Of a stretch of 64,000 bases of DNA, positions 23,541-63,204 are shown piece after piece. Numbering within the stretch: the first letter of the stretch is position 1; each line of letters starts with the position of its first letter. Source of the DNA: Demequina gelatinilytica (GTDB lineage: Bacteria; Actinomycetota; Actinomycetes; Actinomycetales; Demequinaceae); the NCBI RefSeq assembly GCF_000971115.1, contig NZ_BBLV01000002.1:124001-188000 (forward strand). The letters run 5' to 3'. Below the pieces are notes generated by a model. The model was not told the origin of the DNA. It did no database searches and saw only the letters and a list, made by a program, of their open reading frames with translations. Both the position numbers and the translations under genes were made by a program.

Positions 23541-23556
23541 TGTGACGCACCTCACA
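23541..23556. promoter_or_regulatory. Perfect CRP/GlxR-type operator TGTGA-N6-TCACA
   Basis: The sequence is TGTGACGCACCTCACA with one further matching G/C pair outside. This is the consensus bound by CRP-family regulators, including actinobacterial GlxR and Mycobacterium CRP. It sits upstream of gene T3 and downstream of T4 (both minus strand), so T3 is the likely target. A second perfect site is at 61703-61718. Confidence 0.65.
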
Positions 23557-23598
23557 CGAGCAATCGCGGACGAACCTCGCAAACCTCGCGCGCGACGC

Positions 23599-24066: not shown

Positions 24067-24161
24067 GGCATCCTCCTCGGTCAGGAGCGGAGCGGTCACG
24101 TACGCCTCAGGCTAAGCGCAGATTGTCGCGATTGCACGGTTTCGCGCAACAACCGTGCGTC

Positions 24162-24635: not shown

Positions 24636-24751
24636 GCCGCACCTTCACCTTCGGACATTCCGCACCTTCAGGATAGGTGCGGCGTCCGTCGGCTGCGAGG
24701 GCCCAGGCACGGCGCCCCGCGATCACCGGTGCCGGTGCGTGACGGCGAGGC

Positions 24752-25633
24752 TCAGTGGAACTGGCCGCCCACGGTGCGCGTGAAGACCGTGGTGGAGGTG
24801 ACCTCGGTGCCGGTCGCGACGAGCGTGAAGGTGCTCCCGACCTTGGGCTTCTTGAACGACAGCACGATGGCGCCGGGGGCGAGCGTCCCCGTGTACGTGA
24901 AGGTGGTGGTGCGCATGCCGGTCGACGGCGAGTCGTTGACTGCGGAGGCCTTGGTCCACCCGGAGATGTCGACGGTCGAGCTCTGGCCCTGGAGCCCCTC
25001 GGGCGTCCACGTCACCACGATCTTGGCGTTGGTGACGGACGCGCTCGACGTGACCTGGTAGGAGTACGAGCTGCCGGTCCCGGCAACCGGGTCGGCGACG
25101 GTCGCGCTGAACGCGTTGACGCTGCCGGCACGGGTCACCGTGCGGCTCCCGGTCACGGTCGCACCGTTCGACGTGGCGGACGCCGCGAGCGCCGCGTTGA
25201 GCGGGTACGGGTCCTCGCCTGCCGGGGCGAGCGTGAGCGCGAACGCGGTCGACGAGGTCGACGTCGCGATCGAGGCCGCGTACGTGGCGGTGTAGATGAC
25301 CGACGTGCCGCTGGTGGTGGGGCCGGTGAGGACCCAGCCGGAACCCGAGGAGGACACGGGCGCCGCGGTCACCTGCGACGCGGGGACGGTGACCGTCACC
25401 TGCGTGCCCGTGAGCGGCTCGGAGCCGGCGACGCCGGAATTGGTCACCACAAGCGTGAGGACGCTGTTGACGCCGCTTGCGACGAAGGTCGAGGTCGCGA
25501 GCGAGACCGCACCGGGCGTCTGCGATGCCGCGGCCGGCGGCGAGGCCGTCGCGATCAGGACCGCGGGCGTGGCCCACGCCGCTCCCTGGACAATGCGGCG
25601 GCGCGATACACCGCTCTCAGCAACGCTCATCAT
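24752..25633 (-). CDS. Exported beta-rich protein with RRR-GAAWATPA signal (paralogue T6)
   Basis: At 293 residues this is the largest of the six. The signal is SRRRIVQGAAWATPAVLIAT followed by ASPPAAAS. The mature part appears to hold two beta-sandwich units: one near residues 45-135 with a DUF11-like pattern (LTLVVTNSGVAGSEPLTGTQ), and a second near 180-290. It contains no Cys and no sorting signal. Two adjacent in-frame ATGs (25633, 25630) follow a GAGGGG ribosome site. The HprK/PqqD operon begins beyond its 5' side. Confidence 0.7.
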   Translation of the reverse strand: MMSVAESGVSRRRIVQGAAWATPAVLIATASPPAAASQTPGAVSLATSTFVASGVNSVLTLVVTNSGVAGSEPLTGTQVTVTVPASQVTAAPVSSSGSGWVLTGPTTSGTSVIYTATYAASIATSTSSTAFALTLAPAGEDPYPLNAALAASATSNGATVTGSRTVTRAGSVNAFSATVADPVAGTGSSYSYQVTSSASVTNAKIVVTWTPEGLQGQSSTVDISGWTKASAVNDSPSTGMRTTTFTYTGTLAPGAIVLSFKKPKVGSTFTLVATGTEVTSTTVFTRTVGGQFH

Positions 25634-42468: not shown

Positions 42469-43944
42469 TCAGTACGCCCCGGACTTGCCCAGGACCGCCG
42501 CGACCGTGCGCAGGATGATGATCGCGTCGCCGCCGATCGACCAGTTCTCCGCGTAGTAGGCGTCGAGCCGGATCGACTCGGCCGGCGTGAGCGAGGACCG
42601 GCCCGACACCTGCCACAGCCCCGTCATGCCGGGCTTGACCAGCAGGCGGCGGCGCTCGAGGTCGCCGTAGTGCGCCACCTCCGCCGCGACCTGGGGGCGA
42701 GGCCCGACCATCGACATGTCGCCCTTGAGGACGTTGATCAGCTGCGGGAGCTCGTCGACCGAGTAGCGGCGCATGAAGCGGCCCAGCGGCGTGATGCGGG
42801 GGTCGTCCTCGTTCTTGTAGAAGGGCGTGAGCTCGCCACCCATGACGTCCGCCGCCTTGGCCTCGGCATCGGCCACCATCGAGCGGAACTTGTACATGCC
42901 GAACGGCGAGCCGTCCTTCCCGATGCGCTGCTGGATGAAGAGGACGGGACCGGGGCTGGTGACCTTGATCGCGATCGCGACCGCGAGCATCGGCAAGGAG
43001 ATGGCAGCGAGGAGCAGCGCGGCGGAGACACGGTCGTAGATGGTCTTGGCGATGTACTTGGCACCGCGGAACTGCGCGGTGTCCACGTGGAGCAGAGGGA
43101 GGCCCTCGACGGGGCTCATGAGCACGCGCGGGCCGGCGACGTCCACCATCGCGGGGGCCACGATGAGCCCGATGCCGGTGTTCTCGAGCTGCCAGCCGAT
43201 GCGGCGCGCGTCCCCGAGCGACACCTGATCCGTCCCGGAGATCAGCACGAACTCCGCGTTCATGCGCTTGGCGACGTCGACCGCCTCGCCCACGAAGCCC
43301 AGCACCGGCACGCCGCCCACCTCCTCGACGGACGGCTCGGTGCCGTCGGGGACGCACGCGCCGATCACGGCGTAGCCGGCGCGGGGCTTGCGGCGCAGGC
43401 GCGCGATCATCTGCTCGGACATCTTCACGGGCCCGACCACCAGCACCTGCGCCCGGAGGTTCCCCAGGTCGCGTTGCGCGTGGATCCACTTGCGCCACAC
43501 CAGACGGTAGATGAGCAGGATCACGGTGCCCACGGGGATCGCGAAGACCAGGTACCCGCGGCTCACGTCCCATTGGGTGAGGAAGCCCACGATCGCCACC
43601 ACCGCGAAGGTCCACCAGCCGGCGGCGACCACCCGCTGGAACTCCTGGGGCCCGTGGCCGAGCACGCGCGGCTCGCGGGACTTGGTGGAACCGAGCGCGA
43701 CCACCCACAGCGTCGCGATCACCAGGCTCACCACGCCGTACGCGGGGGCGGAGGGTCCGGCGACGCGGTAGAGCGGGTCCCAGCCGAACCGGGCGGCGTG
43801 CGCGCCGACCATGACCAGCGCGACCACGAAGACATCCGAGACGAACAGCCGGCGCTGGTACCTGCCCGCCCAGCCGTGACCGCCGTACATGCGTTCGGCG
43901 GCGTCTACCCGGTGAGATGCACCCGTCGTCACAAACCTCACCAT
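42469..43944 (-). CDS. Polyprenyl-phosphate sugar-1-phosphate transferase, WbaP/CpsE type (first)
   Basis: The 491-residue initiating transferase places the first sugar phosphate on undecaprenyl phosphate. Four or five N-terminal helices are followed by a Rossmann-like middle part (QVLVVGPVKMSEQMIARLRR) and the C-terminal bacterial sugar transferase domain. There, FGMYKFRSM, YSVDELPQLINVLKGDMSMV and the VGPRP motif are all present. It is a close paralogue of the gene at 60-61.7 kb. It diverges from a tyrosine kinase gene over 107 bases, as the second copy does. Start: ATG 43944; the GTG at 43932 aligns better with the second copy. Confidence 0.92.
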   Translation of the reverse strand: MVRFVTTGASHRVDAAERMYGGHGWAGRYQRRLFVSDVFVVALVMVGAHAARFGWDPLYRVAGPSAPAYGVVSLVIATLWVVALGSTKSREPRVLGHGPQEFQRVVAAGWWTFAVVAIVGFLTQWDVSRGYLVFAIPVGTVILLIYRLVWRKWIHAQRDLGNLRAQVLVVGPVKMSEQMIARLRRKPRAGYAVIGACVPDGTEPSVEEVGGVPVLGFVGEAVDVAKRMNAEFVLISGTDQVSLGDARRIGWQLENTGIGLIVAPAMVDVAGPRVLMSPVEGLPLLHVDTAQFRGAKYIAKTIYDRVSAALLLAAISLPMLAVAIAIKVTSPGPVLFIQQRIGKDGSPFGMYKFRSMVADAEAKAADVMGGELTPFYKNEDDPRITPLGRFMRRYSVDELPQLINVLKGDMSMVGPRPQVAAEVAHYGDLERRRLLVKPGMTGLWQVSGRSSLTPAESIRLDAYYAENWSIGGDAIIILRTVAAVLGKSGAY

Positions 43945-44010
43945 ACCTGGATGAATCGGAACGACCACCGGAACGGCCCCGCTCCTCCCGCATCGGCCCG
44001 CCACGTGTGA

Positions 44011-44028
44011 CAATTGCCGCAATTGCCA
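44011..44028. promoter_or_regulatory. Adjacent direct 9-base repeats CAATTGCCG/CAATTGCCA in a divergent promoter
   Basis: Two 9-mers follow each other directly, 24 bases before the kinase start, in the AT-richest part of the gap between the sugar transferase and the kinase. Each contains the palindrome CAATTG. They could be an operator, but I know of no regulator with this site. Confidence 0.35.
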
Positions 44029-49114: not shown

Positions 49115-50116
49115 CTACCGGACGCGGCGTCGCACCGCCCCGGCGACATCCGACACCCACTTCTTGGGCGAGTTGCGGGGGACCCCCAGGCGAGAACCAA
49201 GATGCGCAACCCACGCGGAGTCCTCATAATTCGCGAGTGCGAGCGCCTTCGACTCACTGGTCAGGTCTCCGTAGAGCCGGCGAAGCCCATACCTCTTCTC
49301 CGCTGGGACGTGCCACAGGGCTCGCCCGAGGTCGACCTCGCCGACGTTGCGGAACTTGAGGGGCTGAGTCCACATGCGGCGCACCGCCTGGGGATCCGCG
49401 AGAGGCCCCGCTCCGAGTTGCGCGTAGGCCGCGCTCAGCACGTGCGCCTCCTCGAACGCAAGCGAGTTGTCGGCGCGGTGTGCCTCCATCAGGCGGGCAT
49501 ACACGTCCTCGGCAGCCTCAACGAGCTCCGGCAATCGACCGGTCATCGCCGCGACAAACTCACCACCGCAGTAGTCGAACGTCTCTTGGCCCAGAAGGTC
49601 GGCCAGCTCCTCGGTGCTGAGCCCGTTCACCCGGTGCGCGTGCTCATATCCGACGGGCATAGTCACCACGCCGGCCTCCTCGATCTCCCGCCAAAGCCCA
49701 TCAGCCGCGCCGGCAGTCGACCAGGCGATATCGCTGTCAAGAACAACAAAGGGCTCATCGGCGTCCGAAGTGCTTGCGATATGCGCCAGAACATCGAGGA
49801 CGAAGAACTGGTTGCGCCATCGATCTGTGAACGTCGACGGGGGCTCGTGCTCATATTCGATCACCGAGATGGAAACGCCCGCATCGGCAAGCATCGCGGA
49901 CACCTGCGCGGCAACCTGGGAAGCATCCGCATCCCACTCCCGGTTGAGTACCAACTCGAGCCGCGCGTCCGGGTTCGCCCGTCGCGCAGTCGCGAAGAAC
50001 ACCCCGATGCAGCGACGGTAAACGTCCCGAAACGACTCGTCCCGAGTATCGCCAGAGACTTGCGCATAGTTGCCGACACCGCTGTCGTCGGTATGGAACC
50101 AACTCAGAATTCGCAA
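49115..50116 (-). CDS. Putative GT-A-type glycosyltransferase
   Basis: The 333-residue protein starts MRILSWFHTDDSGVGNYAQV. The key motif is FVVLDSDIAW, a D-x-D that in GT-A enzymes holds the metal and nucleotide sugar, preceded by RWRNQFFVLDVL. FDYCGGEFVAAMTGRLPELV and AQPLKFRNVG-like segments follow. I cannot name the family, but the layout fits a cytosolic sugar transferase of the repeat unit. It is the last gene of the long minus-strand run and has lower GC than the core genes. Confidence 0.6.
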   Translation of the reverse strand: MRILSWFHTDDSGVGNYAQVSGDTRDESFRDVYRRCIGVFFATARRANPDARLELVLNREWDADASQVAAQVSAMLADAGVSISVIEYEHEPPSTFTDRWRNQFFVLDVLAHIASTSDADEPFVVLDSDIAWSTAGAADGLWREIEEAGVVTMPVGYEHAHRVNGLSTEELADLLGQETFDYCGGEFVAAMTGRLPELVEAAEDVYARLMEAHRADNSLAFEEAHVLSAAYAQLGAGPLADPQAVRRMWTQPLKFRNVGEVDLGRALWHVPAEKRYGLRRLYGDLTSESKALALANYEDSAWVAHLGSRLGVPRNSPKKWVSDVAGAVRRRVR

Positions 50117-50189
50117 TGCTCAGCCCTCTTGTTGCGGGCGCGACTGCGAAGATCGACTAGCACTGCATACCCCACTTGCTCCCGCCGCA

Positions 50190-51173
50190 CTAGGAAGCGA
50201 CCGTCGAGTTCATCGCCCGCGCCAGGGCAGCCGCTTCGTAGTCGCCACCGGATGTGAGCGGCACCCACCTTCCGGCATCGGGGATCTCGTGCCACCAGGG
50301 CGAGCGCGCCAACACTGCCCCGCGCGACGCCAGGGCCGCGGTGAAAGAGAATGACGACGGCGCCGGGACCAGAAGACGCGCGGCGACCATGTGCGCGAAA
50401 TCTGACTCGCGCGTTCCATCACCGATGACTTCTACGCCCCCGGGGAGCGCATCTCGCAGTTCTTCCGCCGCCTGCGCACCTTGAGTGAAGACCAAGTACC
50501 TCGTGGCGGCAACCGCCTTGTCACTTTGTAGCTTCGCGATCACTTCCGCGTACCACTCAGGAAGGACCCAGCGCGCCGCATGCGCATTGGGGTCGATGTC
50601 GCCCCGCCGCATGTGGAGAGCAACGTACGGCGGCTCAGATTCGAGCCTGCGGATACGGTCACCTGCCACGCCATTGAGTGCACCTTGGCGCAATGCTTCC
50701 GACGCCGGCGTCTGGTCGTAGCGCAGCTGATCAAGCGCGAACATGAAGGAGCACGGGCCGCGCCTGCGCCTGACGGCGGAAGTCACCGCGTTGGCAAGAA
50801 TCACCGCAGACCCAGGGTCGCGCTCGTCTCGTACCGCCGGTAGACGTACGGTGCGCCCCAGCGCAGCACCCGGCTCCACCGGCAAGCGCAGCAGCTCGGG
50901 GTCATTCTGCGTCATCGTGCCGCCTAAATAGCGACCGCCAAGGTCGCGCGTCCAGAGCAGCCCGCTCAACCAGGATGAGACCTGGTGGCCCAGCATCGCG
51001 AAAGGGTGCGGCTCCGAGATGAAGGTCGATTCCGCGATCCACTCGCTCTCACGGGGGGTCCGCTCGAGCAAAAGCGGCGCGGGTCCCTGCTGCGCGCGCG
51101 CGCGCGAATTGCTGTGCACTTGCGCTCGCACTCGGATCCTGGTGGGCAGCGTCTCTAGCCGGTGTTTTCGCAT
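50190..51173 (-). CDS. Putative fucosyltransferase-like glycosyltransferase (HxRRGD motif)
   Basis: The 327-residue protein contains YVALHMRRGDIDPN, the hallmark of alpha-1,2/alpha-1,6-fucosyltransferase folds (GT11 and relatives). It is followed by a typical Rossmann half with RYLVFTQGAQAAEELRDAL and SFSFTAALASRGAV near the end. Donor and linkage are not certain because HxRRGD is shared by several families. It has an Arg-rich N-terminus before QGPAPLLLERTP. AAGG lies before the ATG at 51173. GC is lower than in core genes. Confidence 0.65.
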   Translation of the reverse strand: MRKHRLETLPTRIRVRAQVHSNSRARAQQGPAPLLLERTPRESEWIAESTFISEPHPFAMLGHQVSSWLSGLLWTRDLGGRYLGGTMTQNDPELLRLPVEPGAALGRTVRLPAVRDERDPGSAVILANAVTSAVRRRRGPCSFMFALDQLRYDQTPASEALRQGALNGVAGDRIRRLESEPPYVALHMRRGDIDPNAHAARWVLPEWYAEVIAKLQSDKAVAATRYLVFTQGAQAAEELRDALPGGVEVIGDGTRESDFAHMVAARLLVPAPSSFSFTAALASRGAVLARSPWWHEIPDAGRWVPLTSGGDYEAAALARAMNSTVAS

Positions 51174-51231
51174 CTACCTTCCACTTCCCTTTCTGAACAT
51201 ACGTGCGTGGCGCCAGCCCGAGTGAGGCTGC

Positions 51232-52719
51232 TCACGCGATCGTCTTCCCCATGACTCCATAGCGCTTCGCAATCTGATAAGGCGGCAAGCGATGGCGGAA
51301 GGTCCAACACACTCCGATCGTGGCGGCGAACATCGATCCCAGAGCGACAATCGTGGCGCCGGCGCCGTAGTCCCCGAAGGCTCGCCATAGACCGAATGCC
51401 GCGCCGCCTGTCAACGCCGCGGCGCTCGCCGCGCCTAGATACCTCACCGCAAGGGGCCTCAACGGTAGGTATCCACCTCGGCTAGCAAAATAGATGTCCA
51501 CCGTGTGCTGACCAGCGAACGCGGCCGGGATCGCAAGAACAGCGGGCCATACGCTGCCGACTACGACCGCGGTTCCTGCTCCGGCCACTTGGATGCTGAG
51601 CCCGGTCAGCTGCTCAGAAAGGATCCACCTGCGATTGCCGATGGCCTCAGCAGCTGCAGCCAGCACCATCGTTGATATCTGCAACCCGCCAGATACGACA
51701 AGCACGGCTGCGATCGGTTGCGCCGCGTCCCATCCATCACCCAGAAGTAGCGGCATCGCCACAACGACTCCAACGGCCGCAAACGACATCACCGGCCAGA
51801 GCAGCCACGAGATCAGCGCGAGCATGTCGACCCACACCCGTCTCGCACGTTCCGGCGACGCAATATCGTGCCGGAACTCCGGGTAGACCGACTGAACGAT
51901 CGCGCTCTGGAGTTGCTGGATCGGCACACTTGAGACGACGTCTGCTCGGTTCCAGTAGCCCAAAGCGGCGACGCTTGATGCGTGACCAGCCGCGAACTTG
52001 CCGATGAAGCCCGAGACGAACCCGATCATCCGGCTCGAGACGATTGTCGCTCCATACTGCGCAAACGCCGATATCCGTACTGGCGCGCCAGGCACGCGCC
52101 AGTACGGCCGGAGAATAACCGCAAAGACCAGAAGCGATATCACCTGCGCTGCGAGTGCGGATACGGCGAGCGCTAGGGCCTGATGCCAATGCAGCACGGC
52201 GGACACGCCGACAACCATGCCGATCGCATTCGCCGCCACCATTCCAATAGCAAGCGAACCGAAATGCCCTATACGTCTGACCAGCGCGGCTGCGACCCCA
52301 CTCAACGGTCCGATTGCAACGTTGAGCGAGACGAACCTCAGCACAGGCTCAGCCTCTGGCGCATCCCACAGCCAGGCCCAGAACGGCGCGCTCGCGTACA
52401 TCGCTGCACCAGCGATCGCTCCGACCACCGCGGCACCACGCCACAAAGCACCCAACGCCGGCCTTGTCACACTCTCCGTGCGCCCGGCGAGTGCAACCAC
52501 GGGACCGGTCGCAACCGTGCTGAACAGCACTGCCGAGGAGAGCGCAATGGCGTAGGCACCAAACGCATCCGGACCGAGAGCTCGCGATGTGATCGCCGCA
52601 TAACCAAGCTGCAGAAGCGCGGACACCAGGGTCGCGCCGTAGATGCTGGAGGCGCCTCTCGCGATGCGCTTGGCGGTCGACGCCGTCGAGGCCGTGGACG
52701 CCGCATTGCGACTAGACAT
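51232..52719 (-). CDS. Polysaccharide flippase, Wzx/MOP superfamily (second)
   Basis: The 495-residue integral membrane protein has about 12 to 14 helices and the N-terminal MOP pattern (RIARGASSIYGATLVSALLQ, then AAITSRALGPDAFGAYAI). It is only distantly related to the first flippase. A short STASTAST repeat precedes the first helix. It overlaps the upstream glycosyltransferase by eight bases. It has AT-richer codon usage than the first flippase, consistent with a recently acquired module. Confidence 0.85.
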   Translation of the reverse strand: MSSRNAASTASTASTAKRIARGASSIYGATLVSALLQLGYAAITSRALGPDAFGAYAIALSSAVLFSTVATGPVVALAGRTESVTRPALGALWRGAAVVGAIAGAAMYASAPFWAWLWDAPEAEPVLRFVSLNVAIGPLSGVAAALVRRIGHFGSLAIGMVAANAIGMVVGVSAVLHWHQALALAVSALAAQVISLLVFAVILRPYWRVPGAPVRISAFAQYGATIVSSRMIGFVSGFIGKFAAGHASSVAALGYWNRADVVSSVPIQQLQSAIVQSVYPEFRHDIASPERARRVWVDMLALISWLLWPVMSFAAVGVVVAMPLLLGDGWDAAQPIAAVLVVSGGLQISTMVLAAAAEAIGNRRWILSEQLTGLSIQVAGAGTAVVVGSVWPAVLAIPAAFAGQHTVDIYFASRGGYLPLRPLAVRYLGAASAAALTGGAAFGLWRAFGDYGAGATIVALGSMFAATIGVCWTFRHRLPPYQIAKRYGVMGKTIA

Positions 52720-53794
52720 GAACGTCCACGGGAGTGCGCACAGACCAGATTCGAGCCGCAGAAGCGACGTCGATCGAGGCCCCCGCTGCGTTGAGCATGT
52801 GGACGAACTGATCGTCGAAACGCAGATGCGTCCATGCGTGGCTTCGGCCCACAGCCATGGCACGAAGCCGATCCTGCGGGCCGGTTCGCTCGAGGTAATC
52901 GACGATCGACCGCACCAGTTGCGACGGCGACGTCGCGAGAACCATCGCTTCTCTGACCGGGTCCGAGAAGATCTCGTCGAAACCTGGGTGGAGAGTCGTC
53001 GCATGGACGGAGCCTGCCGCAAGCGAGATCGCCAGCCGATCCGAGTGGTAAGAGTGCTCGCTTGCGAAGTGGTCCCAATTCGCGGAGATCCAAGCTGAGC
53101 GGATGGCTCTCTGCTGGTGATCGAATGGCAACGGCCCGAGGGCACCCGGTCCGGACCAGCCTCTGCCATAAATGGCGCATTGGTCGCCGAGAGCATCTTG
53201 AAGTGCGTCCACGAACGCGATGCGGTCGCGCCAATCGGGTAGGCCGCGGAGCCTCGGAGTGTTGCGGTGGGCGATCACGACGACGTCATGGTCCCGGCCT
53301 GCCGAAGCAGGAGCTCCTTCATCAGGGAACCGGTCGGGGTCGAATCCCCACTCCAGGTACCGCACGTCGCGGACGCCGATCCTGGTGAAGTTCTTGGGGA
53401 AAGTGGAGCGGCCTGAGACGAACACGACGTCCGCTACACGACCGATCGCTCGAGCTTCGCGTGGCAGCGCGTGCAACGGCCACCGAAAAGGATCACCTTC
53501 GTGGTAGACGAGGACAAAGTCGGCAAGTGATCGGAGTTGGCGCATCGCGTCACGATCAAGTCCCGTGCCACCAAGATGCTGCATAAGAACGATCGTCGGC
53601 CTGAACTCTCGGACAACGCTCGCGAGTGCGGCGAACGCGGCGCTTGGGCTTTCTCCCCCGCGAACGCGGTGAAGGAGGCTGAAAACCTCGCCAGCCTCGA
53701 TCCGGCCGGACGCTGCCAACTCCCTCAGCGCTCGCCGCTGGGCAAGCTGCCGCCACGACCCGACTTCATTCGGTACGTATAGAACGCGTGCCAC
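52712..53794 (-). CDS. Glycosyltransferase-like protein (CgeB/YkvP-like)
   Basis: The 360-residue protein has N-terminal VLYVPNEVGSWRQLAQRRAL, then PTIVLMQHLGG and a donor-half segment (DRLAISLAAGSVHATTLHPGFDEIF) that resembles the CgeB/spore-coat glycosyltransferase C-terminal domain (PF13524). GTG at 53794 comes one base after the polymerase stop (TGACGTG) and has GGGGAG eight bases upstream. No catalytic residue can be assigned with confidence. Confidence 0.65.
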   Translation of the reverse strand: MARVLYVPNEVGSWRQLAQRRALRELAASGRIEAGEVFSLLHRVRGGESPSAAFAALASVVREFRPTIVLMQHLGGTGLDRDAMRQLRSLADFVLVYHEGDPFRWPLHALPREARAIGRVADVVFVSGRSTFPKNFTRIGVRDVRYLEWGFDPDRFPDEGAPASAGRDHDVVVIAHRNTPRLRGLPDWRDRIAFVDALQDALGDQCAIYGRGWSGPGALGPLPFDHQQRAIRSAWISANWDHFASEHSYHSDRLAISLAAGSVHATTLHPGFDEIFSDPVREAMVLATSPSQLVRSIVDYLERTGPQDRLRAMAVGRSHAWTHLRFDDQFVHMLNAAGASIDVASAARIWSVRTPVDVHV

Positions 53795-53795
53795 G

Positions 53796-55139
53796 TCAAT
53801 GACTCCCCACCAGGCGCCGACTTCCCGGCAGCTTTCGATATGTGCTTGCCGTGCGCGAAGAACCCAAGTGGTCCGAGACGAAGGGCGCCGCCAATCCGCA
53901 CACCAGCAGCGGCAGCACGTACCAAGGCCAGGAATACGCCCAGCCGAAAACGGTGACGGCAACCCACGCGCCTGGAAGCCACGGGGCGACTCCGGCTCGC
54001 AATGCGAGTCGCAATGCCGCGACGAGGAGCCAGAACAGCAGGATCAGTCCGATCAGCCCAGCGCGCAGGAACACTGAGACGTACCAATTATGCGGAGAGA
54101 ACTCGACCCATCGTCCATTCCCCTCGAAACGCCCGAATCCCGAACCGAACGGGCGCCCGAACATGACTACCGAAGCACCCCGCGAGAACGCGTCAGAAAC
54201 AAGTGCGCTCCAGCTGGCCGTGCGGCCCTCGTAAGTCCCCGAGCTAGTAGCCGACTGAACGAGCTGCTCCGGGAGGCTGCCAAGTGACCCCGCCGCATAC
54301 GCAATCGCCAGCGTAAGCGCGCCCACGCTGGCGCTCGCGATCGCTGTCGCCCTCTGCTTCGCGCCCAGGCGGACGAAGATGACCACAAGGCCCGCGACGA
54401 TGGCGACAGTCGCGGTTCGTTGCTGCGACAACACCAGGGTAGCGAGCCCCAAGCATGCAACGACGCGGGTCCACCGCGATGACGGGACGTCGCCGGGTGT
54501 GAGGAGCGCCAGCGCCGAGATGCCGAGGATAAGCGCCTGGCCGGAAGTGAGAATGCGCCCCGTCTGGACCACTTCTCCAGAATCGCTGATCAAGAGCGCA
54601 TCTGCGCCGCCCAACCCATAGCGAGCGCCGTGGTAAATCGCGATCACAATGAGTCCGACGACAACCCACGTGGCGTAGCGGCGCATGAGCCACCCGAGCG
54701 CCTTCCCATCCTGGTAGCGGATCGAAGCGGCCCAAAGGAGCGCAATCGGCACCGCGACGAAGCCTCGCGCTTCGACCACCACAGTTCCGAGGTCGCCACC
54801 GACTGCACCTGCAAGGAAGCTGCCAACGAACGCAAGCAACAGGAGTGCGGTCGCAACGTGGAAACTGCGCGGTACAAGACGCCCCCGCGTCGCGGCTACC
54901 GCCAGCGCTCCCGCCAGCACCAGGACGATCACGTCATCGAGGTAGATGGTGAAGCCAAGGACCCCCGCGACCCGCGGCGCCTGCGGCGATTCCCAGATGA
55001 TGGCAGGAATCACCGCGGTGAGCGCAAGCCCGAGGCCGGGGTAACGCACGACTGCCGCCACCGCGATGCAATACATCGCCAGCGCCCCCATCGCTAGCAT
55101 GCCCAACCACGCCTGCCCTGCCAGGGCCGCGCCGTTCAC
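53796..55139 (-). CDS. Putative polysaccharide polymerase, Wzy / O-antigen-ligase family (second)
   Basis: The 447-residue integral membrane protein has about 11 helices and a large external loop near residues 290-345, where FGRPFGSGFGRFEGNGRWVEFSPHNWY matches the conserved SPHNxYL region of the family. The GTG at 55139 overlaps the upstream glycosyltransferase as GTGA. It pairs with the second flippase two genes away, making a complete second Wzx/Wzy system. Confidence 0.82.
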   Translation of the reverse strand: MNGAALAGQAWLGMLAMGALAMYCIAVAAVVRYPGLGLALTAVIPAIIWESPQAPRVAGVLGFTIYLDDVIVLVLAGALAVAATRGRLVPRSFHVATALLLLAFVGSFLAGAVGGDLGTVVVEARGFVAVPIALLWAASIRYQDGKALGWLMRRYATWVVVGLIVIAIYHGARYGLGGADALLISDSGEVVQTGRILTSGQALILGISALALLTPGDVPSSRWTRVVACLGLATLVLSQQRTATVAIVAGLVVIFVRLGAKQRATAIASASVGALTLAIAYAAGSLGSLPEQLVQSATSSGTYEGRTASWSALVSDAFSRGASVVMFGRPFGSGFGRFEGNGRWVEFSPHNWYVSVFLRAGLIGLILLFWLLVAALRLALRAGVAPWLPGAWVAVTVFGWAYSWPWYVLPLLVCGLAAPFVSDHLGSSRTASTYRKLPGSRRLVGSH

Positions 55140-56275
55140 GCTGATGCCGCCGATCGTGCGCCACCGACTACACGCGCGTAGACGCCGGCATACTCGCGCG
55201 CACCCCGCGATGCGGAGAAGTCAGGGTGCGCGCGATCGTGCGTGCGCCCCTGCGCCAGCGCCAGTGTCAGGGCCTGCCGCCATCGTCGGACATCGAGCGG
55301 GAGCGAGGTGACGCCAACGAGGTCTGCCGCCCAGCGCAGTCCGGGCACATCCGAGATCACGCATGGCACGCCGACCGTCAAGGCCTCAGCCAAAGCGACT
55401 CCCATGCCTTCGTGGCGCGAGGGCATGAGGTAGACACCTGCTCCAGACAACCAAGGGATGGGGTCACCGGGCCCACAGTGAAGGAGAAGACCGTCACGAT
55501 CCAGTTGCGCGAGGAGTTCCTGTTCGCGCGGCGACGCGCCAGAAGTGTCTCCGACGAGCGCCAGCGGGATGCCGCTCCCCACCAGTGCTTCGAGCGCGAG
55601 CACATGGTTCTTGATAGGTGACATGTTGCCGACGATGACCGCGTGGCGAGTCGGCGACTGCACATCTGCGACGTCTGAAAAGTCGTCGGCGACCCAGTTG
55701 TAGACGACTTCGCACTCACGTCCGAGAGCGCGCTCCTGCGACGCGACGTCAGGTGATGGCGCGACCAACGCCTCGACGCGGCGGTCCCCCAGCAACGCCT
55801 GCGCTCGCCGCGACCAGCTTGCCTTCCCCGTCACGGGAAAGACATTGTGGATGGTCCTGACGATGGCGCTCGCATCACGGGAGCCACGTACCGCGTTGAT
55901 GTAAGCGCCCTCGGTGTGGATGTGCACCACGTCCGCCCGGTGGTTCGCGACGGCACGGCGAAGCGCATCCACGCCGGCCCGGACACGGATCGAGGGAATC
56001 GTGTCGAGTTCGTAGCCCGCGGCCTCGAGCTCGGGAGCGAACGGGTGATCATCGCCTTGGCCCACCACGACGTGCGCTGTATGCGCCGGCCAATACGGCG
56101 CCGCGGACACGAGCATCCGCTCCATTCCGCTCGGGCGCAGTGGCCCCATCAGATGCAGGATGCGCAACGGGGCGTCCTGCATGCCGTGGACCATGGGCGA
56201 AAGCCTATTGCCGGTCGTCCACCGCATAGTTTCGTCGGCCCTTTCGCTCTCGTGATCAGAAGACGTCGCCGTCAC
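55136..56275 (-). CDS. Glycosyltransferase, GT4 family
   Basis: This is a GT-B enzyme of about 379 residues. APLRILHLMGPLRPSGMERM begins the fold, then AVIVGNMSPIKNHVLALEAL and MPSRHEGMGVALAEALTVGVP give the E-x7-E donor motif. The first 35 residues are polar and variable. GTG at 56275 overlaps the upstream stop as GTGA, but ATG at 56227, 56194 or 56182 could also be used. Confidence 0.83.
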   Translation of the reverse strand: MTATSSDHESERADETMRWTTGNRLSPMVHGMQDAPLRILHLMGPLRPSGMERMLVSAAPYWPAHTAHVVVGQGDDHPFAPELEAAGYELDTIPSIRVRAGVDALRRAVANHRADVVHIHTEGAYINAVRGSRDASAIVRTIHNVFPVTGKASWSRRAQALLGDRRVEALVAPSPDVASQERALGRECEVVYNWVADDFSDVADVQSPTRHAVIVGNMSPIKNHVLALEALVGSGIPLALVGDTSGASPREQELLAQLDRDGLLLHCGPGDPIPWLSGAGVYLMPSRHEGMGVALAEALTVGVPCVISDVPGLRWAADLVGVTSLPLDVRRWRQALTLALAQGRTHDRAHPDFSASRGAREYAGVYARVVGGARSAASA

Positions 56276-57171
56276 GCTCGATCCTCCGACGGTGCGCCAA
56301 GGGCAGCCGGCCGAGCGGCTCCGAAGCGACTTCCCGCCCGCATGCACCACTTGGCGTAAGTCGCAGACCACCAGAACGGCCATGCGATCGGAGCCAAGCG
56401 TCGAAGGATCCGAGCCGTTGAGCGCGGATTGCCTCCGCCCTTGACTCCCGTGAAGCCGCGCCACGCCTCCGACGCACTCCGATAGTGCGGCTCAGGGTTG
56501 CGCGCACATGTGCCGTAGGTGCCAGGCGCGAGGAGCGCCGGGACCCCGGCGCGCGCCGCGCGCGTCGCGAGATCGATGTCCGCGAGCGCATGGGAGAAGC
56601 CGCCATCGAGCCCGCCAAGCGCAGCGACGACGGTATCCGGCACGAGCACGACGTTGCCGTTCATGGCATCGACAGGCTCCGGATCCGTAGCCGGCTCCAC
56701 GAGCGCGAAGGCGAGCGGGTGCGCTCCGGACCGTCGCATCCCCCCATAGGTGACCTCCCCCGATTCTGGATCGCGGGTCGAGCCGACGAGGATCCGGTCC
56801 GGGTTATCGGATTGCACCTTCAGGAGCCGAACCAGCGCATCGGCATCCGCATCCACGTCGTCGTTGAGCCAGAACAGCGTGTAGCGACGTGCGTCGAGCT
56901 CCTTCGCCAGGGCGATCGCCCGCGCCTCGGACGCCTGCATCGATGCGGCCCAGAACTTGGAGCCGTCGCCACGCAGCACCTCCGTGCGCGCGCCGAACTG
57001 GCCCTCAACCGCATCCGCTGTGCCGTCGGCTGAGCCGTCGTCGAACAGGACGGCTCGAGCGTTGAGGCCGCCGGCGTCGGCCGCCACGAAGAATCTCTCG
57101 AGCGCGCGCAGCGTGAGCGCACGCCTGTTGTAGGAGGCCAGGATGGCGATGAGGACATGGTCAGGACGCAT
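56272..57171 (-). CDS. Glycosyltransferase, GT2 family (rhamnosyltransferase-like)
   Basis: The 299-residue GT-A enzyme has AILASYNRRALTLRALERFF, the nucleotide-binding DDGSADGT and the metal-binding LFWLNDDVDADADALVRLL. MNGNVVLVPDTVVAALGGLD and HALADIDLATRAARAG match the GT2 acceptor end. Substrate is unknown; rhamnosyltransferases often look like this. It overlaps both neighbours, so it is part of one co-translated run. Confidence 0.86.
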   Translation of the reverse strand: MRPDHVLIAILASYNRRALTLRALERFFVAADAGGLNARAVLFDDGSADGTADAVEGQFGARTEVLRGDGSKFWAASMQASEARAIALAKELDARRYTLFWLNDDVDADADALVRLLKVQSDNPDRILVGSTRDPESGEVTYGGMRRSGAHPLAFALVEPATDPEPVDAMNGNVVLVPDTVVAALGGLDGGFSHALADIDLATRAARAGVPALLAPGTYGTCARNPEPHYRSASEAWRGFTGVKGGGNPRSTARILRRLAPIAWPFWWSATYAKWCMRAGSRFGAARPAALGAPSEDRA

Positions 57172-58279
57172 CGAGAGCTCCTTCTATGCCGCTCATGAAC
57201 CGCGCGGCCATCGCCTCGATGCTCAGGAGATCGTCGCTTCCCTCGCACGCGGCCCGCAGCCGGGCGTTCAGTGCGCGGTCAGAGAGCACCGCGCTCAGCG
57301 CTTCGGCGTACGCGGACGGCGAGTCGTGAGAGGTGACCGAGTTCTCCGAGGTGAGGTACGCCCGTTCCGGCGCATGGCCGTGCCAGTCGGTGGTCACCAC
57401 CGGAACGCGCGCAGCCAGCGCATCGACTGCAATCAGACCCACCCGGCCGGGCATGGCGAGTGCATCCGCGGAGGCGAATGCGATCGCGAGCTCGCGCCCG
57501 AACGCCGGAGGCCGCACGTGCATCCAGGGGCGCTCGGCAGCGAGTGCCTGGAGGTCCGGCCCTGCCGGACCCGCGCCTAGTACCACCAGGGAGAAGCCTT
57601 CGACCTTCGGCGCGACCTCCTCGCACGCCCGGACAAGGAAGTCGAGGCGCTTGGACGAGTCGAGGCCCCCGATGAAGACAGCAACAGGGCCCACGCCCAG
57701 GCCCTCTCGGAAGCGAGCCACCTCATCCGGCGTGAGGTCGCTCAGATCTGAGCGCAGGGAACGTGTGTCGGTGGTGTTCCACAGGACCGTGCACCGGCCC
57801 TCCGGCACGCCGGCGCGTGCCGCAGCCTCGACACTGTCTTCCGTGTACCCGAAGAACCAGGTCGCACGCCGCGTCAGCGCGTCCAGCACCCCGCGAGAGA
57901 CGCGGCCGGAGGCTCGCGTGAAGTCACGGCCGTGCCCCCACATGGCGATGTTGCGTCTGCCGCGCAACACCGCCGCGTAGACATCGAGATTCCTCCGCGC
58001 CTGCTCGACCACCACCAGGTCGGATTCGGCGAAGTGCCGCGAGGTGCGTCTCATCCCGATCCGGCGACCCGCGATGCGGATCTCGCGCTGACGCAGCTCC
58101 TCGTCAACCTGGAACCCGTCACCGTCTCGGCGCGCCGCCTGCGCGCCCTGCGGCGTGCCGGCGACGATGCGCAGGTCGATTCCGCGTTCCGCCGCCAGCC
58201 GACGCATCTCCCGGAACAGGGGCGCCCGATACCTCGGAACGTACTCCTGGATGATGGTGACGATCGCAGGTGTGTTCAC
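57161..58279 (-). CDS. Glycosyltransferase, GT4 family
   Basis: The 372-residue GT-B enzyme has VTIIQEYVPRYRAPLFREMR, a common start of exopolysaccharide GT4 enzymes. It also has VAVFIGGLDSSKRLDFLVRA and FASADALAMPGRVGLIAVDALAA in the donor half. IAMWGHGRDF and GYTEDSVEAAARAGVPEGR fit the same subfamily. GTG at 58279 overlaps the upstream stop as GTGA. Confidence 0.86.
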   Translation of the reverse strand: MNTPAIVTIIQEYVPRYRAPLFREMRRLAAERGIDLRIVAGTPQGAQAARRDGDGFQVDEELRQREIRIAGRRIGMRRTSRHFAESDLVVVEQARRNLDVYAAVLRGRRNIAMWGHGRDFTRASGRVSRGVLDALTRRATWFFGYTEDSVEAAARAGVPEGRCTVLWNTTDTRSLRSDLSDLTPDEVARFREGLGVGPVAVFIGGLDSSKRLDFLVRACEEVAPKVEGFSLVVLGAGPAGPDLQALAAERPWMHVRPPAFGRELAIAFASADALAMPGRVGLIAVDALAARVPVVTTDWHGHAPERAYLTSENSVTSHDSPSAYAEALSAVLSDRALNARLRAACEGSDDLLSIEAMAARFMSGIEGALDAS

Positions 58280-59358
58280 GCTCGCACCCCTGCAACCTCT
58301 GCCCAGGCCCTTCCGAAGACCGCAGGAGAGTGCGCGGCGGCGAACGAGTTTTTTGCCGCCTCACCGAAGGCCGTTTGCTGCTCGGCATCGGCGAGGAGGG
58401 TTCGCACCGCGGCGACCAGCGCTGCAGCGTCACCCGCGCGCACAAGGCGGCCGTTCTCCCCGTCGACGATCAGATCGCGGATCCCACCGACGTCGTATGC
58501 GACCACCGGCACACCGTAGGACATGGCCTCGACGATGGCGAGGGGCTGGGCCTCGAACGCATACGTGCTGGGGAACACCATCACCCGACTCTGAGAGAGC
58601 AGAAGGTCACGCTGCTCGGCATCGATGGGGCCGAGGATGGAGAGGCCGCGCAGCCCCTCTTGGCTCGCGCGTGCTCGGAGCTCCTCGAGCTGGCCGTCGT
58701 AGGACGGCGCCCCGCCCAGCGAGAACTCGACGTCCGTGAACTCGGGGCCAAGCTCCCGGACCACCTGGAGGTAGTCGTCGAAGCCCTTGTCAGGGATCAG
58801 GTTGCCAAGGAAGATCACCTGCGCGCGTGGCTGCGCCTCGGACTTGGTCGGATCAGGCATGGGCGCAGAGTTGGCGATCACCTCGATGCCCCCCGCGCCA
58901 GCGCTGCGGGCATCGTCCGCCAGCGATTCCCCGAGCACCACCGTCCGACGTGCGGCACCGAGCAGGAAGCGTACGGCCCGTCGGTGGAGCGGGCTCCTTG
59001 CCGCCAGCGCCGCCCAGCCGTTCGTGTGGAGGTAGTTCACCACGTCTGCTCGCCGTGCTCGCAGCACGGCGGCGAGCACCACGTCGACCATGAAGGAGAA
59101 GGACCGGTTGGTGGCGAAGAACACCACCGCATCGGCGCGCGACGGGGCCCCAGCCTTCCACACCTTGGCCACCAACCTGATGGCGGCCCCCACCTTCCTG
59201 AGCTCGAAGCGCCCGACCTGAGACACGCTCGAGGAGAACTCTCGGCCGACGACGGCGACCTGGGCACCGTGGGACTCAAGAGCATCGACCAACCGCTGCG
59301 TCATGATCGTGGATCCATGCACCGGGGGCGGAAGCTGCGAGATGACGACTACCTTCAA
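58276..59358 (-). CDS. Glycosyltransferase, GT4 family, TTG start
   Basis: The 360-residue GT-B enzyme starts LKVVVISQLPPPVHGSTIMT and has VIFLGNLIPDKGFDDYLQVV and FPSTYAFEAQPLAIVEAMSYG with the E-x7-E donor motif. The start is TTG at 59358, which overlaps the WecG-like stop as TTGA and has an AGGGGG ribosome site. The alternative starts are far inside the fold. GC rises again here toward the genomic norm. Confidence 0.85.
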   Translation of the reverse strand: MKVVVISQLPPPVHGSTIMTQRLVDALESHGAQVAVVGREFSSSVSQVGRFELRKVGAAIRLVAKVWKAGAPSRADAVVFFATNRSFSFMVDVVLAAVLRARRADVVNYLHTNGWAALAARSPLHRRAVRFLLGAARRTVVLGESLADDARSAGAGGIEVIANSAPMPDPTKSEAQPRAQVIFLGNLIPDKGFDDYLQVVRELGPEFTDVEFSLGGAPSYDGQLEELRARASQEGLRGLSILGPIDAEQRDLLLSQSRVMVFPSTYAFEAQPLAIVEAMSYGVPVVAYDVGGIRDLIVDGENGRLVRAGDAAALVAAVRTLLADAEQQTAFGEAAKNSFAAAHSPAVFGRAWAEVAGVRA

Positions 59359-60134
59359 CGCTCGCGCGCCCCCTGGCTCACCACGCGCACAAACTTCGCG
59401 TTCCCGATGAGATACCGCCGCCACAACCGCCGCGGCTCGGAGGCCAGGCGGAACAACCACTCGAGGTGCACCCGGCGCATCCACCTCGGCGCCTCACGCA
59501 CGGTACCGGCGACGAAGTCGAAGGCCGCGCCCACGGCGGCGCACGTGAGCCCCGTGCGCGCGGCGAGTTCCACCGCCGCATAGTCCTGCTTCGGGGTTCC
59601 GAGCCCCACCCAGACCACATCGGCCTCGGCGTCCGCGACGCGCGCCGTCGCCTCGCTGAGCATCGCCTCATCGACGGGCCCGAACGGCGGCGACCACACG
59701 CCGGCGATCTCGACGCCCGGATAGCGAGCCTCGAGCTCCCTAGCAAGCGCGGACAGCGTCTCCTCGGTGGCGCCCAGGAAGAAGTGGCGGGTGCCGGCGA
59801 CACGTCCGGCGTCGATCACGCCTTCGAACAGCGACGGCCCGCGCACCTGCTCCGAGGCAGGCGCCTCGCGCCGGATCGCGCGCGCCACGGGCGCGCCATC
59901 CGCATACGTGAACCCGGGCGAGTTCAGCAGCGAGGCGTACTCGGCGTCCTCGCTCGCGAGCACCACGCACCACGCGTTCGCGAGGCGGATAGAGACCCCG
60001 CGACGAGCAGCGACGGTCTCGAGCACCTCCGCGACGGCCTGGTCGAAGCCGCGCGCGTGGAAGCCGACGGGGCCCACCTTGACGCGCACGTCGTCGGGCA
60101 CGCTCGACACGTCCGAATAGGTCGCCTCAGTCAA
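59355..60134 (-). CDS. WecG/TagA/CpsF family glycosyltransferase
   Basis: The 259-residue enzyme adds the second sugar (often an aminosugar such as N-acetylmannosamine derivatives) to the undecaprenyl-linked first sugar. Hallmarks are IRLANAWCVVLASED, the catalytic-type Asp in TYADGAPVARAI, RHFFLGATEETL and WVGLGTPKQDYAAVEL. TTG at 60134 is the only in-frame start that keeps the full N-terminus. It directly follows the sugar transferase gene in the run and probably acts on its product. Confidence 0.88.
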   Translation of the reverse strand: MTEATYSDVSSVPDDVRVKVGPVGFHARGFDQAVAEVLETVAARRGVSIRLANAWCVVLASEDAEYASLLNSPGFTYADGAPVARAIRREAPASEQVRGPSLFEGVIDAGRVAGTRHFFLGATEETLSALARELEARYPGVEIAGVWSPPFGPVDEAMLSEATARVADAEADVVWVGLGTPKQDYAAVELAARTGLTCAAVGAAFDFVAGTVREAPRWMRRVHLEWLFRLASEPRRLWRRYLIGNAKFVRVVSQGARER

Positions 60135-60196: not shown

Positions 60197-61678
60197 TCAG
60201 TACGCGCCCTTGCCCGCCACCACGGCCCACGCCGTCTTCGCGACGATGAGCGCATCCATGCCCAGGCTCCAGTTCTCCGTGTAGTAGAGATCCAGACGCA
60301 CCGACTGCTCCCACGTGAGATCCGAGCGGCCGCTCACCTGCCACAGGCCCGTGAGACCCGGCCGCACCAGCTGGCGGCGCGCCACGCGCTCGTCCCACGC
60401 CTCCGTCTCGCTGAGCAGCGGCGGGCGCGGTCCCACGATCGACATCTCGCCCCGCAGCACGTTGAACAGCTGCGGCAGCTCGTCCAGCGAGTAGCGGCGC
60501 AGCACCTTGCCCACGCGCGTCACGCGCGGGTCGTCGTGCATCTTGAACAGGACGCCGTTGCCGTCGCTGTCGAGCTGGAGCTCAGCGAGCCGCGACTCGG
60601 CGTCCGTGTACATCGAGCGGAACTTGAGCATCTCGAACAGCTGGTGGTCGCGACCCACGCGCGCCTGCCTGAACAGCACCGGTCCGGGGCTGGTGAGCTT
60701 GATCGCCAGCGCGATCACGGCCATCGGGACCGCGAGCACCACCACCGCGAGGAACGCGCCCACGCGATCCGCGACGGTCTTGAGCGCCAGCTTGGGACCG
60801 CTGAACTGCGGCTCCTCGACGTGAAGGAGCGGCAGGCCCTCGACCGGCGACATCTGCACGCGCGGGCCGGCGACGTCCACCATGGAGGGCACCACGATCA
60901 GCCCGATGCCCGAGCCCTCGAGCGACCACCCGAGCGAGCGCGCCTCGCGCAGGGACATCGCGTCGTTACCGGAGAGCAGGATGTACTCGGCGCCGATCGC
61001 GCCCGCCTGGACCACCGCATCGTCCAGCGGCCCCAGCACGGGCACGCCGTCGACCTCGAGCACCTCGGAAGGCACGGTCCCCGGCGGGGTGCACACGCCC
61101 ACCACGTGGTAGCCGGCGCGGCGCGCGCCGTTGAGGCGACGCACCATCTGCTCGGAGGTCCGCAGCGGCCCCACTACCAGCACCTGCGCCTGCAGGTGCC
61201 CGGCGTCGCGTTGCGCGTGGATCCAGAGCCGCCACGCGCCGCGGTAGACCAGCAGCACCAGCGTCCCGAGGGGGATCGCGAAGAAGAGGTAGCCGCGGCT
61301 GATGTCGAGCTTCAGCACGAACGCAACGGTCGCGACGATCCCGAAGGTCCAGAAGCCCGCCGCGAGCACACGCTGGAACTCCTGCGGGCCGTGGCCCAGG
61401 ATGCGCGGCGAGCGCGAGCGGGTCGCGGACAGCTGGACCATCCACAGCAAGCCGATCGCGATGGTCACCAGCAGGTAGGGCGGCGCCAGGTCTCCCGAGA
61501 CCCGCTCGAGAGGGTTCCAGCCGAAGCGGGCCGCCTGGGCCATGGTCATGACGAGCGCGACCACAAAGAAATCGGAGAACACAAGCCGCAAAAGGTACTT
61601 CCGTGACCATCCGGTGCGGCCGTGCATCCGTTCCGCCGATGCGCGCGGAAGTGCGGTGGCCCCCAGCGTCACGGGCAC
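60197..61678 (-). CDS. Polyprenyl-phosphate sugar-1-phosphate transferase, WbaP/CpsE type (second)
   Basis: The 493-residue initiating transferase is closely similar to the first copy along its length: QVLVVGPLRTSEQMVRRLNG, FEMLKFRSM, YSLDELPQLFNVLRGEMSIV and VGPRP. It is the first gene of the long run reaching down to 49.1 kb. Starts at GTG 61678 or GTG 61672 are both plausible. A perfect CRP-type operator lies 25 bases upstream in the gap shared with the divergent kinase gene. Confidence 0.92.
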   Translation of the reverse strand: MPVTLGATALPRASAERMHGRTGWSRKYLLRLVFSDFFVVALVMTMAQAARFGWNPLERVSGDLAPPYLLVTIAIGLLWMVQLSATRSRSPRILGHGPQEFQRVLAAGFWTFGIVATVAFVLKLDISRGYLFFAIPLGTLVLLVYRGAWRLWIHAQRDAGHLQAQVLVVGPLRTSEQMVRRLNGARRAGYHVVGVCTPPGTVPSEVLEVDGVPVLGPLDDAVVQAGAIGAEYILLSGNDAMSLREARSLGWSLEGSGIGLIVVPSMVDVAGPRVQMSPVEGLPLLHVEEPQFSGPKLALKTVADRVGAFLAVVVLAVPMAVIALAIKLTSPGPVLFRQARVGRDHQLFEMLKFRSMYTDAESRLAELQLDSDGNGVLFKMHDDPRVTRVGKVLRRYSLDELPQLFNVLRGEMSIVGPRPPLLSETEAWDERVARRQLVRPGLTGLWQVSGRSDLTWEQSVRLDLYYTENWSLGMDALIVAKTAWAVVAGKGAY

Positions 61679-61702
61679 AGGTTATCGGCAAACTTCGCCT
61701 TG

Positions 61703-61718
61703 TGTGAAGCAGGTCACA
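61703..61718. promoter_or_regulatory. Perfect CRP/GlxR-type operator TGTGA-N6-TCACA in divergent promoter
   Basis: The sequence TGTGAAGCAGGTCACA extends by one further G/C match on each side. It sits in the 140-base gap between the sugar transferase (-) and the tyrosine kinase (+), nearer the transferase. It is a good candidate for cAMP- or CRP-family control of polysaccharide initiation. Confidence 0.7.
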
Positions 61719-61818
61719 CCTATGTCCCAAATGTGCTTGTAGACGTGCAACAAAGCCGTGAGATGCGCATGGAACAATGCACCCGGCGGCGCCGGAGGTG
61801 CGCCGGCTGGGGAGAGCT

Positions 61819-63204
61819 GTGGAACTTCAGGACTATCTTCGTATCCTTCGCAAGCATTGGTTCGCGATCCTCGCGCTGACGGTGCTCGGCACCGGTGCGG
61901 GCGTCGCCTACTCGATGCTCGCGACGCCCGTCTACACGGCCTCCGCGAAGGTCTTCGTGTCCACCAGCGGCTCCAGCTCCGTCGCGGACCTGGCACAGGG
62001 CAACTCCTTCACCCAGCAGCGCGTCAAGACGTACGCGGACCTGGTCACCACCTCCGCGGTGCTCCAGCCGACCATCGACGCGCTCGAGCTGCCCATGTCG
62101 GTGAGCGAGCTGCGCGGCAGCCTCTCCGCCTCGACGCCGCTCAACACCACCGTGATCGACGTGACCGTCACCAACGCGGACCCCGTGTTCGCCGCGGTGC
62201 TCGCGGGCGCGACCTCCGAGCAGCTCATCGAGACCGTCGAGGAGATCGAGACCACCGACCCGCTCGAGGGCTCCCCCGTGCGCCTGTCCGTGGTGCAGGA
62301 GCCCGAGGTCCCCACGGTCCCCACCTCCCCCAACAGCAAGCTCAACGCCGCGCTGGGCCTCATGCTGGGCCTCGCGCTCGGCGTGGGCTACGCGCTGCTG
62401 CGCTCCGCCCTCGACACCAAGATCCGGGGCGAGCGCGACATCGAGCGCATCACCGACGCCCCCGTGCTGGGCGGCATCGTCTTCGACCCCAAGGCCAAGC
62501 AGCGCCCGCTGATCGTCCACCAGGACGCCACGAGCCCGCGCGCCGAGTCCTTCCGCACGCTGCGCACCAACCTCCAGTTCCTGGACGCGGGTCGCACCGA
62601 GCGGTCCTTCGTCATCACCTCCTCCATCCAGTCCGAGGGCAAGTCGACCACCGCGGCCAACCTGGCGATCACGCTGGCGGACGCCGGCGCGCGCGTGCTC
62701 CTGGTCGGCGCGGACCTGCGCCGCCCCAAGGCGGGCAAGTACCTGGGCATCGAGAGCGCCGTGGGCCTCACCGACGTGCTGATCGGCCGCGTGGACCTCG
62801 AGACCGCCGTGCAGCGCTGGGGTCGCTCCGAGCTGTTCGTGCTGCCCGCGGGCGCCATCCCGCCCAACCCGTCGGAGCTCCTGGGCAGCTCGCTCATGGA
62901 GTCGCTCATCGCGCGCCTCGACAGCGAGTTCGACATCGTGCTCTACGACGCTCCCCCGCTGCTGCCCGTCACCGACGCCGCGGTCCTCGCGCGCCTGGTG
63001 GGCGGCACGGTGCTGATCGTCGCTGCGGGCCGCGCGCACGGCCCGCAGGTCGAGAGCGCCATCCAGGCCCTCGAGACCGTCGGCGCCCCGCTCTCCGGCG
63101 TGGTCCTCACCATGCTGCCCTCGAAGGGCCCTGACGCGTACGGCTACGGCCGCTACGGCTACAGCTACCAGTACAGCGAGGACGGCGCGAAGGCGAAGGC
63201 GTGA
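61819..63204 (+). CDS. Wzz/BY-kinase polysaccharide co-polymerase (third)
   Basis: The 461-residue membrane kinase is nearly the same as the second copy. It has two membrane helices, Walker A QSEGKSTT, Walker A' VLLVGADLRRP with the same Gly replacing the first Asp, Walker B VLYDAPP and the tail YGYGRYGYSYQY. DNA around Walker A is almost identical in the two copies (AAGTCGACCACCGCGGCCAA is shared exactly). GTG at 61819 has GGGGAG upstream. It diverges from the sugar transferase gene exactly as in the first block. Confidence 0.92.
   Translation: MELQDYLRILRKHWFAILALTVLGTGAGVAYSMLATPVYTASAKVFVSTSGSSSVADLAQGNSFTQQRVKTYADLVTTSAVLQPTIDALELPMSVSELRGSLSASTPLNTTVIDVTVTNADPVFAAVLAGATSEQLIETVEEIETTDPLEGSPVRLSVVQEPEVPTVPTSPNSKLNAALGLMLGLALGVGYALLRSALDTKIRGERDIERITDAPVLGGIVFDPKAKQRPLIVHQDATSPRAESFRTLRTNLQFLDAGRTERSFVITSSIQSEGKSTTAANLAITLADAGARVLLVGADLRRPKAGKYLGIESAVGLTDVLIGRVDLETAVQRWGRSELFVLPAGAIPPNPSELLGSSLMESLIARLDSEFDIVLYDAPPLLPVTDAAVLARLVGGTVLIVAAGRAHGPQVESAIQALETVGAPLSGVVLTMLPSKGPDAYGYGRYGYSYQYSEDGAKAKA

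Follow-up and report, generated by a model that had tools for sequence, protein, structure and literature searches.

Organisation of the block 2 promoter region

The 64-kb stretch of Demequina gelatinilytica DNA analysed here (the window) carries two duplicated surface-polymer blocks, in each of which an initiating sugar transferase gene and a Wzz/BY-type tyrosine kinase gene are divergently arranged. In block 2 these are a polyprenyl glycosylphosphotransferase (60197–61672, minus strand; Pfam Bac_transf PF02397, E 4e-66, and CoA_binding_3) and a kinase (61819–63204, plus strand; Pfam Wzz, E 1e-14, GNVR and AAA_31), the latter with a GTG start codon after GGGGAG and a tyrosine-rich tail. The transferase gene is followed by a run of same-strand genes (49115–60134, minus strand), which according to Pfam encode a WecG-type glycosyltransferase, several GT4 and GT2 glycosyltransferases, Wzy_C and Wzx, with two members lacking a Pfam family. 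A first-pass annotation of this DNA had named a glycosyltransferase operon of roughly 12 kb; same-strand polysaccharide genes do extend over about that length, whereas their status as an operon is presumed from the layout. A fourth copy of the Wzz/BY-type kinase lies approximately 14 kb past the end of the window (G000:C31:201797-203122), which gives four copies in about 51 kb.

The divergent gap of block 2 contains the GlxR/CRP operator palindrome GTGTGA-N6-TCACAC (no strand assigned), with TGTGAAGCAGGTCACA as core (61703–61718) and GTGTGAAGCAGGTCACAC as extended palindrome (61702–61719), which was characterised by pattern scan, sequence shuffles and comparison with D. subtropica. Both arms, of 6 bp each, are perfect, the symmetry does not continue into the spacer (AGCAGG, 6 bp), and the site has the TGTGA-N6-TCACA palindrome by which CRP and GlxR sites are recognised. 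The window holds two perfect cores, against a mean of 0.02 in 200 dinucleotide-preserving shuffles, and within the 149-bp gap a perfect core arose in 3 of 20,000 shuffles. With up to three mismatches allowed, the window gave 11 matches against a shuffle mean of 23.5, hence fewer than expected by chance, so that only perfect matches are unusual and the three-mismatch scan was discarded as uninformative. Coordinates, arms and shuffles thus all agree with the earlier description of a CRP-type palindrome between the Bac_transf transferase and the Wzz/BY-kinase, and we regard it as a genuine GlxR-type operator, sensibly placed at one promoter; taken as an operator alone, it is an ordinary GlxR site.

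The promoter concerned is predicted to be that of the transferase. A putative −10 element (TAACCT, 61679–61684, minus strand) is located 6–7 nt before a predicted leaderless GTG start codon (61670–61672, minus strand), with the ORF call beginning earlier, at a GTG at 61678. A TANNNT sequence at 6–7 nt before an in-frame ATG or GTG has a chance of 0.013 per start, and was found at both transferase copies of the window (61670–61684 and 43930–43945) and at 12 of 15 other Demequina loci (L016-L027), giving 14/17, with the layout absent from the remaining three (L028, L034 and L036). The initiating transferase genes of Demequina therefore appear to be leaderless, as this layout is that of leaderless genes, and the true start of the block 2 gene is most likely the GTG at 61672. 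Counted from this predicted start, the operator is centred at −38.5, and one of its arms forms a −35-like hexamer (TTCACA, 61703–61708, minus strand) at 18 bp from the −10 element, a position which suggests a functional meaning.

On the other side, the kinase has a predicted extended −10 element (TGGAACAAT, 61770–61778, plus strand) with a predicted transcription start at about 61785. This extended −10 word is present in 20/26 Demequina kinase promoters compared to 0.31 in shuffles, a contrast to be read with the fact that the pattern was derived from these same promoters. The operator lies about 75 bp upstream of the predicted kinase start, which would be an unpromising position for control. 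The proposal that the site drives both genes is thus not supported by the geometry, which places the operator over the −35 position of the transferase promoter only.

Comparison of the two blocks

The block 1 transferase has a similar promoter and start (43930–43945, minus strand), with a −10 element TATGGT at 43940–43945 and a leaderless GTG at 43930–43932. There is no operator in the block 1 gap, where the best match (44005–44022) has three mismatches, and the absence of the palindrome from the first block, as previously noted, was thereby confirmed. The sequence CAATTGCC does occur twice in this gap (44011–44018 and 44020–44027), as had also been reported, but the suggestion that this direct repeat takes the place of the palindrome did not hold up equally well: its first copy overlaps the predicted extended −10 element of the block 1 kinase (TGTGACAAT, 44006–44014, plus strand), which follows the kinase-promoter pattern, and the repeat need therefore not be a replacement operator. 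The TGTGACAAT word is shared with D. subtropica and D. iriomotensis; the CAATTGCC repeat is exact in D. subtropica, with an imperfect second copy in D. iriomotensis. We also considered the GTGTGA at 44005 as the remaining half of a decayed operator, a reading rejected because these bases fall on the recurrent −10 word of Demequina kinase promoters. Between the blocks, the kinases share 75% identity over 442 residues and the transferases 58% over 494 aligned columns. With the operator present in block 2 and absent from block 1, it is plausible that the duplicated blocks are regulated differently, as was originally proposed.

Distribution of the operator in the genome and the genus

The 3.23-Mb D. 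gelatinilytica genome contains 10 perfect cores, compared to none for a reversed-pattern control, and 38 matches with at most one mismatch, compared to 4 for the control. Placed with a simple gene caller, most of the 10 perfect sites are intergenic or at gene edges: they precede genes for a small protein, a T2SSE-type pilus ATPase (this site overlapping the end of the preceding gene), an FN3 protein and a G5/transglycosylase protein resembling resuscitation factors, or are located between a protein kinase and a histidine kinase gene and at the start of a TPR-like ORF, while one site each is found within a zinc-type dehydrogenase gene and a DtxR-like gene. The other two are those in the window (61702–61719 and 23540–23557). 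Over 44 Demequina genomes we counted 219 perfect sites (summed by hand) against 10 controls. The sole genome of the 44 with no perfect site is G040, in which the GlxR match is only 33%.

The second site in the window, absent from the first-pass annotation, is likewise a perfect extended operator (GTGTGACGCACCTCACAC, 23540–23557, no strand assigned). Its centre lies 69.5 bp before the leaderless start at 23479 (minus strand), a spacing shared by D. subtropica (L203), and the product of the downstream gene (22721–23479, minus strand) is a small exported protein that begins with a twin-arginine-like sequence and has no Pfam family. This gene belongs to a tandem array of four (22721–25633), all encoding small exported proteins whose twin-arginine-like N-termini resemble one another, and no Pfam family was found in the two of the four that were scanned.

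All six perfect sites of D. iriomotensis are in neighbourhoods matching those of D. gelatinilytica sites, and four D. gelatinilytica sites, including both in the window, lack a perfect equivalent in that species. In D. mangrovi, the neighbourhoods match for four of the eight sites, and one more (L198) is probably the counterpart of the site at 23540. In D. subtropica, where the comparison covered only the two window sites, both are present (L016 and L203). The closest relatives of the block 2 transferase are found in D. subtropica (94% identity) and D. iriomotensis (84%), with others lower. At the block 2 site of D. subtropica all 12 arm bases and four of the six spacer bases are kept, and the −38.5 spacing is identical. 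The flanks are identical at 150 of 170 positions as well, so that conservation of this one site is weak evidence by itself. D. iriomotensis lacks the block 2 site, which is also not perfect at the other Demequina transferase loci examined; a long-established operator in the transferase promoter was rejected on this basis, since among these loci the site is perfect only in D. subtropica.

A GlxR ortholog with a conserved recognition helix

A search for GlxR returned one CRP-family protein in the D. gelatinilytica genome, containing the cNMP-binding domain PF00027 (E 7e-24) and the Crp-type HTH domain PF13545 (E 1e-16). Its best match in the PDB is M. tuberculosis CRP (3i54 and 3d0s); the entries 4byy and 4cyd, of C. 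glutamicum GlxR, match with E values of around 2e-66. The recognition helix (RETVNKAL) is letter-identical to that of M. tuberculosis CRP, and the RETVNK helix is present in at least 103 of the 104 GlxR sequences aligned. The neighbouring gene at L013 reads as endonuclease III-like, named by eye from its sequence rather than by family search; nth is the neighbour of glxR/crp in corynebacteria and mycobacteria. A further candidate, C23, which matches PF00325, was rejected as a CRP protein, as by eye it reads as a ROK-type protein. We assign the D. gelatinilytica protein as a GlxR/Crp ortholog with a standard recognition helix. A GlxR match was obtained in all 44 Demequina genomes, including a split gene in G010 (50% complete) and the partial match in G040.

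Adenylate cyclase and the cAMP pocket

The earlier label of the site as CRP-type was apt for the kind of operator, but less so for the control by cAMP that it implies, since no class III adenylate cyclase was detectable and the cAMP pocket is altered. Class III cyclase (PF00211) was found in none of the 44 Demequina genomes, with C. glutamicum as positive control; across the order, 263 of 396 genomes have it. A tailored profile of 12 actinobacterial cyclase domains, run on 61 chosen genomes, identified cyclases at 148 bits or more in nine, all outside Demequina, and three of these had been missed by Pfam. The 44 Demequina genomes and the family neighbour G178 gave nothing better than E 0.12, and seven further Pfam-negative genomes were also negative. 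As PF00211 alone is incomplete (it missed G137, G267 and G053, which the tailored profile scored as positive), counts of cyclase-negative genomes were restricted to those tested with both searches. CYTH proteins are present in seven of the 44 Demequina genomes, and D. gelatinilytica has none; the searches covered class III cyclases and CYTH proteins.

The residue T90 of M. tuberculosis CRP is the equivalent of E. coli Ser83, which contacts the cAMP phosphate, as given in PMC11253593. This position is Leu, Met or Val in all 43 Demequinaceae GlxR sequences (those of Demequina at L070-L104 and L134-L141), in place of the polar residue of cAMP-dependent CRPs, and Thr, Asn or Ser in all 22 sequences from cyclase-positive genomes. 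In the C-helix, the T134-N135 pair reads T, Q, L, I or M followed by S or T in Demequinaceae, with T134 kept in 16/43, compared to 21/22 for each of T134 and N135 in the cyclase-positive set. Nearly all sequences retain the pocket residues Arg89 and Glu80, one Demequina protein (G005) also lacking Arg89; with these two mostly retained and T134 in 16/43, the pocket may still accommodate some ligand. Leu at T90 is also found in both genomes of a second cyclase-negative lineage (f14 g80), and on a quick tree built without the pocket columns the T90 change has two origins. Five of the 50 doubly tested negatives (f12, f4 and f8-g9) have no detected cyclase yet retain Thr90, and a paired comparison of lineages, relating pocket change to cyclase loss, yielded two firm pairs, too few for significance. 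The GlxR proteins of f12 (L123 and L124) have the full canonical cAMP pocket, with no cyclase by PF00211 or the tailored profile in the two genomes searched with both, and an unrecognised cyclase may thus exist there. The block 2 operator probably belongs to a GlxR that is uncoupled from cAMP. We found no report in the open-licence literature of a cyclase-less Demequina, or of a GlxR-controlled exopolysaccharide operon in this genus.

Proposed regulation of block 2

We propose that a GlxR dimer would bind at 61702–61719 and cover the −35 position of the transferase promoter, thus lowering transcription of the block 2 glycosyltransferase operon, with the kinase promoter touched little or indirectly. 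Binding would not need cAMP. As this nucleotide is probably not produced, occupancy of the site would likely be set by the amount of GlxR, another ligand or a partner protein, acting as the trigger. Block 1, having no site, would be outside GlxR control, which would allow the cell to shift the polymer output of block 2 relative to that of block 1. Taken as a whole, we give this reading a probability of roughly 0.6.

Repression is favoured over activation by analogy with M. tuberculosis CRP, for which PMC4117774 associates start-proximal sites with repression and sites further upstream with activation. GlxR could instead activate the transferase promoter from a near-class II position, its protein contacts replacing a poor −35 element, since, like a class II site, the operator overlaps the −35 position; this seems rather unlikely to us. 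Class II sites of E. coli CRP are centred at −41.5 with strict spacing, and the block 2 operator, at −38.5, is three bases nearer to the start, with the −35-like hexamer formed by the operator arm itself. In favour of activation, the M. tuberculosis gene PE22, whose site is at −44.5, has lower expression in a crp mutant (PMC4117774, Table 2), and a site at −38.5 could thus also activate.

It is unlikely, though by no means negligible, that GlxR still responds to cAMP, supplied by an unrecognised cyclase or from outside the cell. The retention of Arg89 and Glu80, the CYTH proteins of seven genomes, the limitation of the cyclase searches to class III and CYTH, and the intact pocket of f12 are all consistent with such a response; against it stand the negative outcome of both searches in 44/44 genomes, the hydrophobic residue at T90 throughout the Demequinaceae (with Arg89 also lost in G005) and the absence of a CYTH match from the D. 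gelatinilytica genome itself. We consider it quite improbable that the palindrome arose by chance or is in decay and has no function at the transferase promoter: its patchy occurrence among Demequina transferase loci and the near-equal conservation of flanks and arms in D. subtropica would fit, as would the statement in PMC4117774 that just a subset of M. tuberculosis CRP sites affects transcription, but the rarity of the core in shuffles of the gap, the exact promoter spacing kept while spacer bases changed, and the strong enrichment of the motif in the genus, with no sites in the ortholog-less G040, argue for a functional operator. Binding by another regulator is very improbable, for while the site is assigned to GlxR from its sequence, the GlxR search gave a single CRP-family protein in the genome, the other Crp-domain match being ROK-like by eye, and the motif is the GlxR/CRP consensus TGTGA-N6-TCACA given in PMC7999487 and PMC4117774.

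Relation to known CRP systems

The C. glutamicum GlxR is of the same protein family as Demequina GlxR and has the same motif (PMC7999487). There, cAMP is made by CyaB (PMC7026483), whereas in Demequina no such cyclase was detected and the T90-type residue is lost. M. tuberculosis CRP (Rv3676), the best PDB match with the identical recognition helix, differs similarly: 16 cyclases are listed for M. tuberculosis (PMC4005916, Table 1) compared to none of class III detected in Demequina, and Demequina GlxR has other residues at the pocket positions T90 and N135, and often at T134. The DNA affinity of M. tuberculosis CRP is described as similar with and without cAMP (PMC8026907).

CRPs independent of cAMP have been described elsewhere. 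In Deinococcus DdrI the Glu and Arg are kept and the equivalents of Ser83, Thr127 and Ser128 are changed (PMC11253593), and PMC12040651 presents Crp-Pg of Porphyromonas, and by citation Crp-Gv of Gardnerella, as cAMP-independent. All three combine an altered cAMP pocket with retained DNA binding, a likeness to Demequina GlxR that we draw from sequence comparison. Unlike these, Demequina GlxR is a close ortholog within the GlxR clade, in which recognition helix and operator are fully kept, and its change is a hydrophobic residue at T90 rather than the Tyr113 of DdrI, the Glu142 of Crp-Pg or the N-terminal plug of Crp-Gv.

On balance we lean towards a GlxR regulon that has been uncoupled from cAMP in the Demequinaceae: the cyclase would be gone and T90 made hydrophobic, while the recognition helix and active operators were kept, some of the latter recently acquired on surface-polymer promoters, and GlxR would be constitutive or differently triggered. 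The two surface-polymer blocks also provide a simple case of duplicates diverging through the gain of one operator. The part worth following, over the operator itself, is the cyclase-less genus with its remodelled cAMP pocket, and the main interest lies in a whole genus seemingly running a canonical actinobacterial CRP regulon without cyclic AMP. If true, Demequina would be a natural test of CRP function after loss of its signal, and the species that differ in pocket residues would form a set for asking how GlxR stays active.
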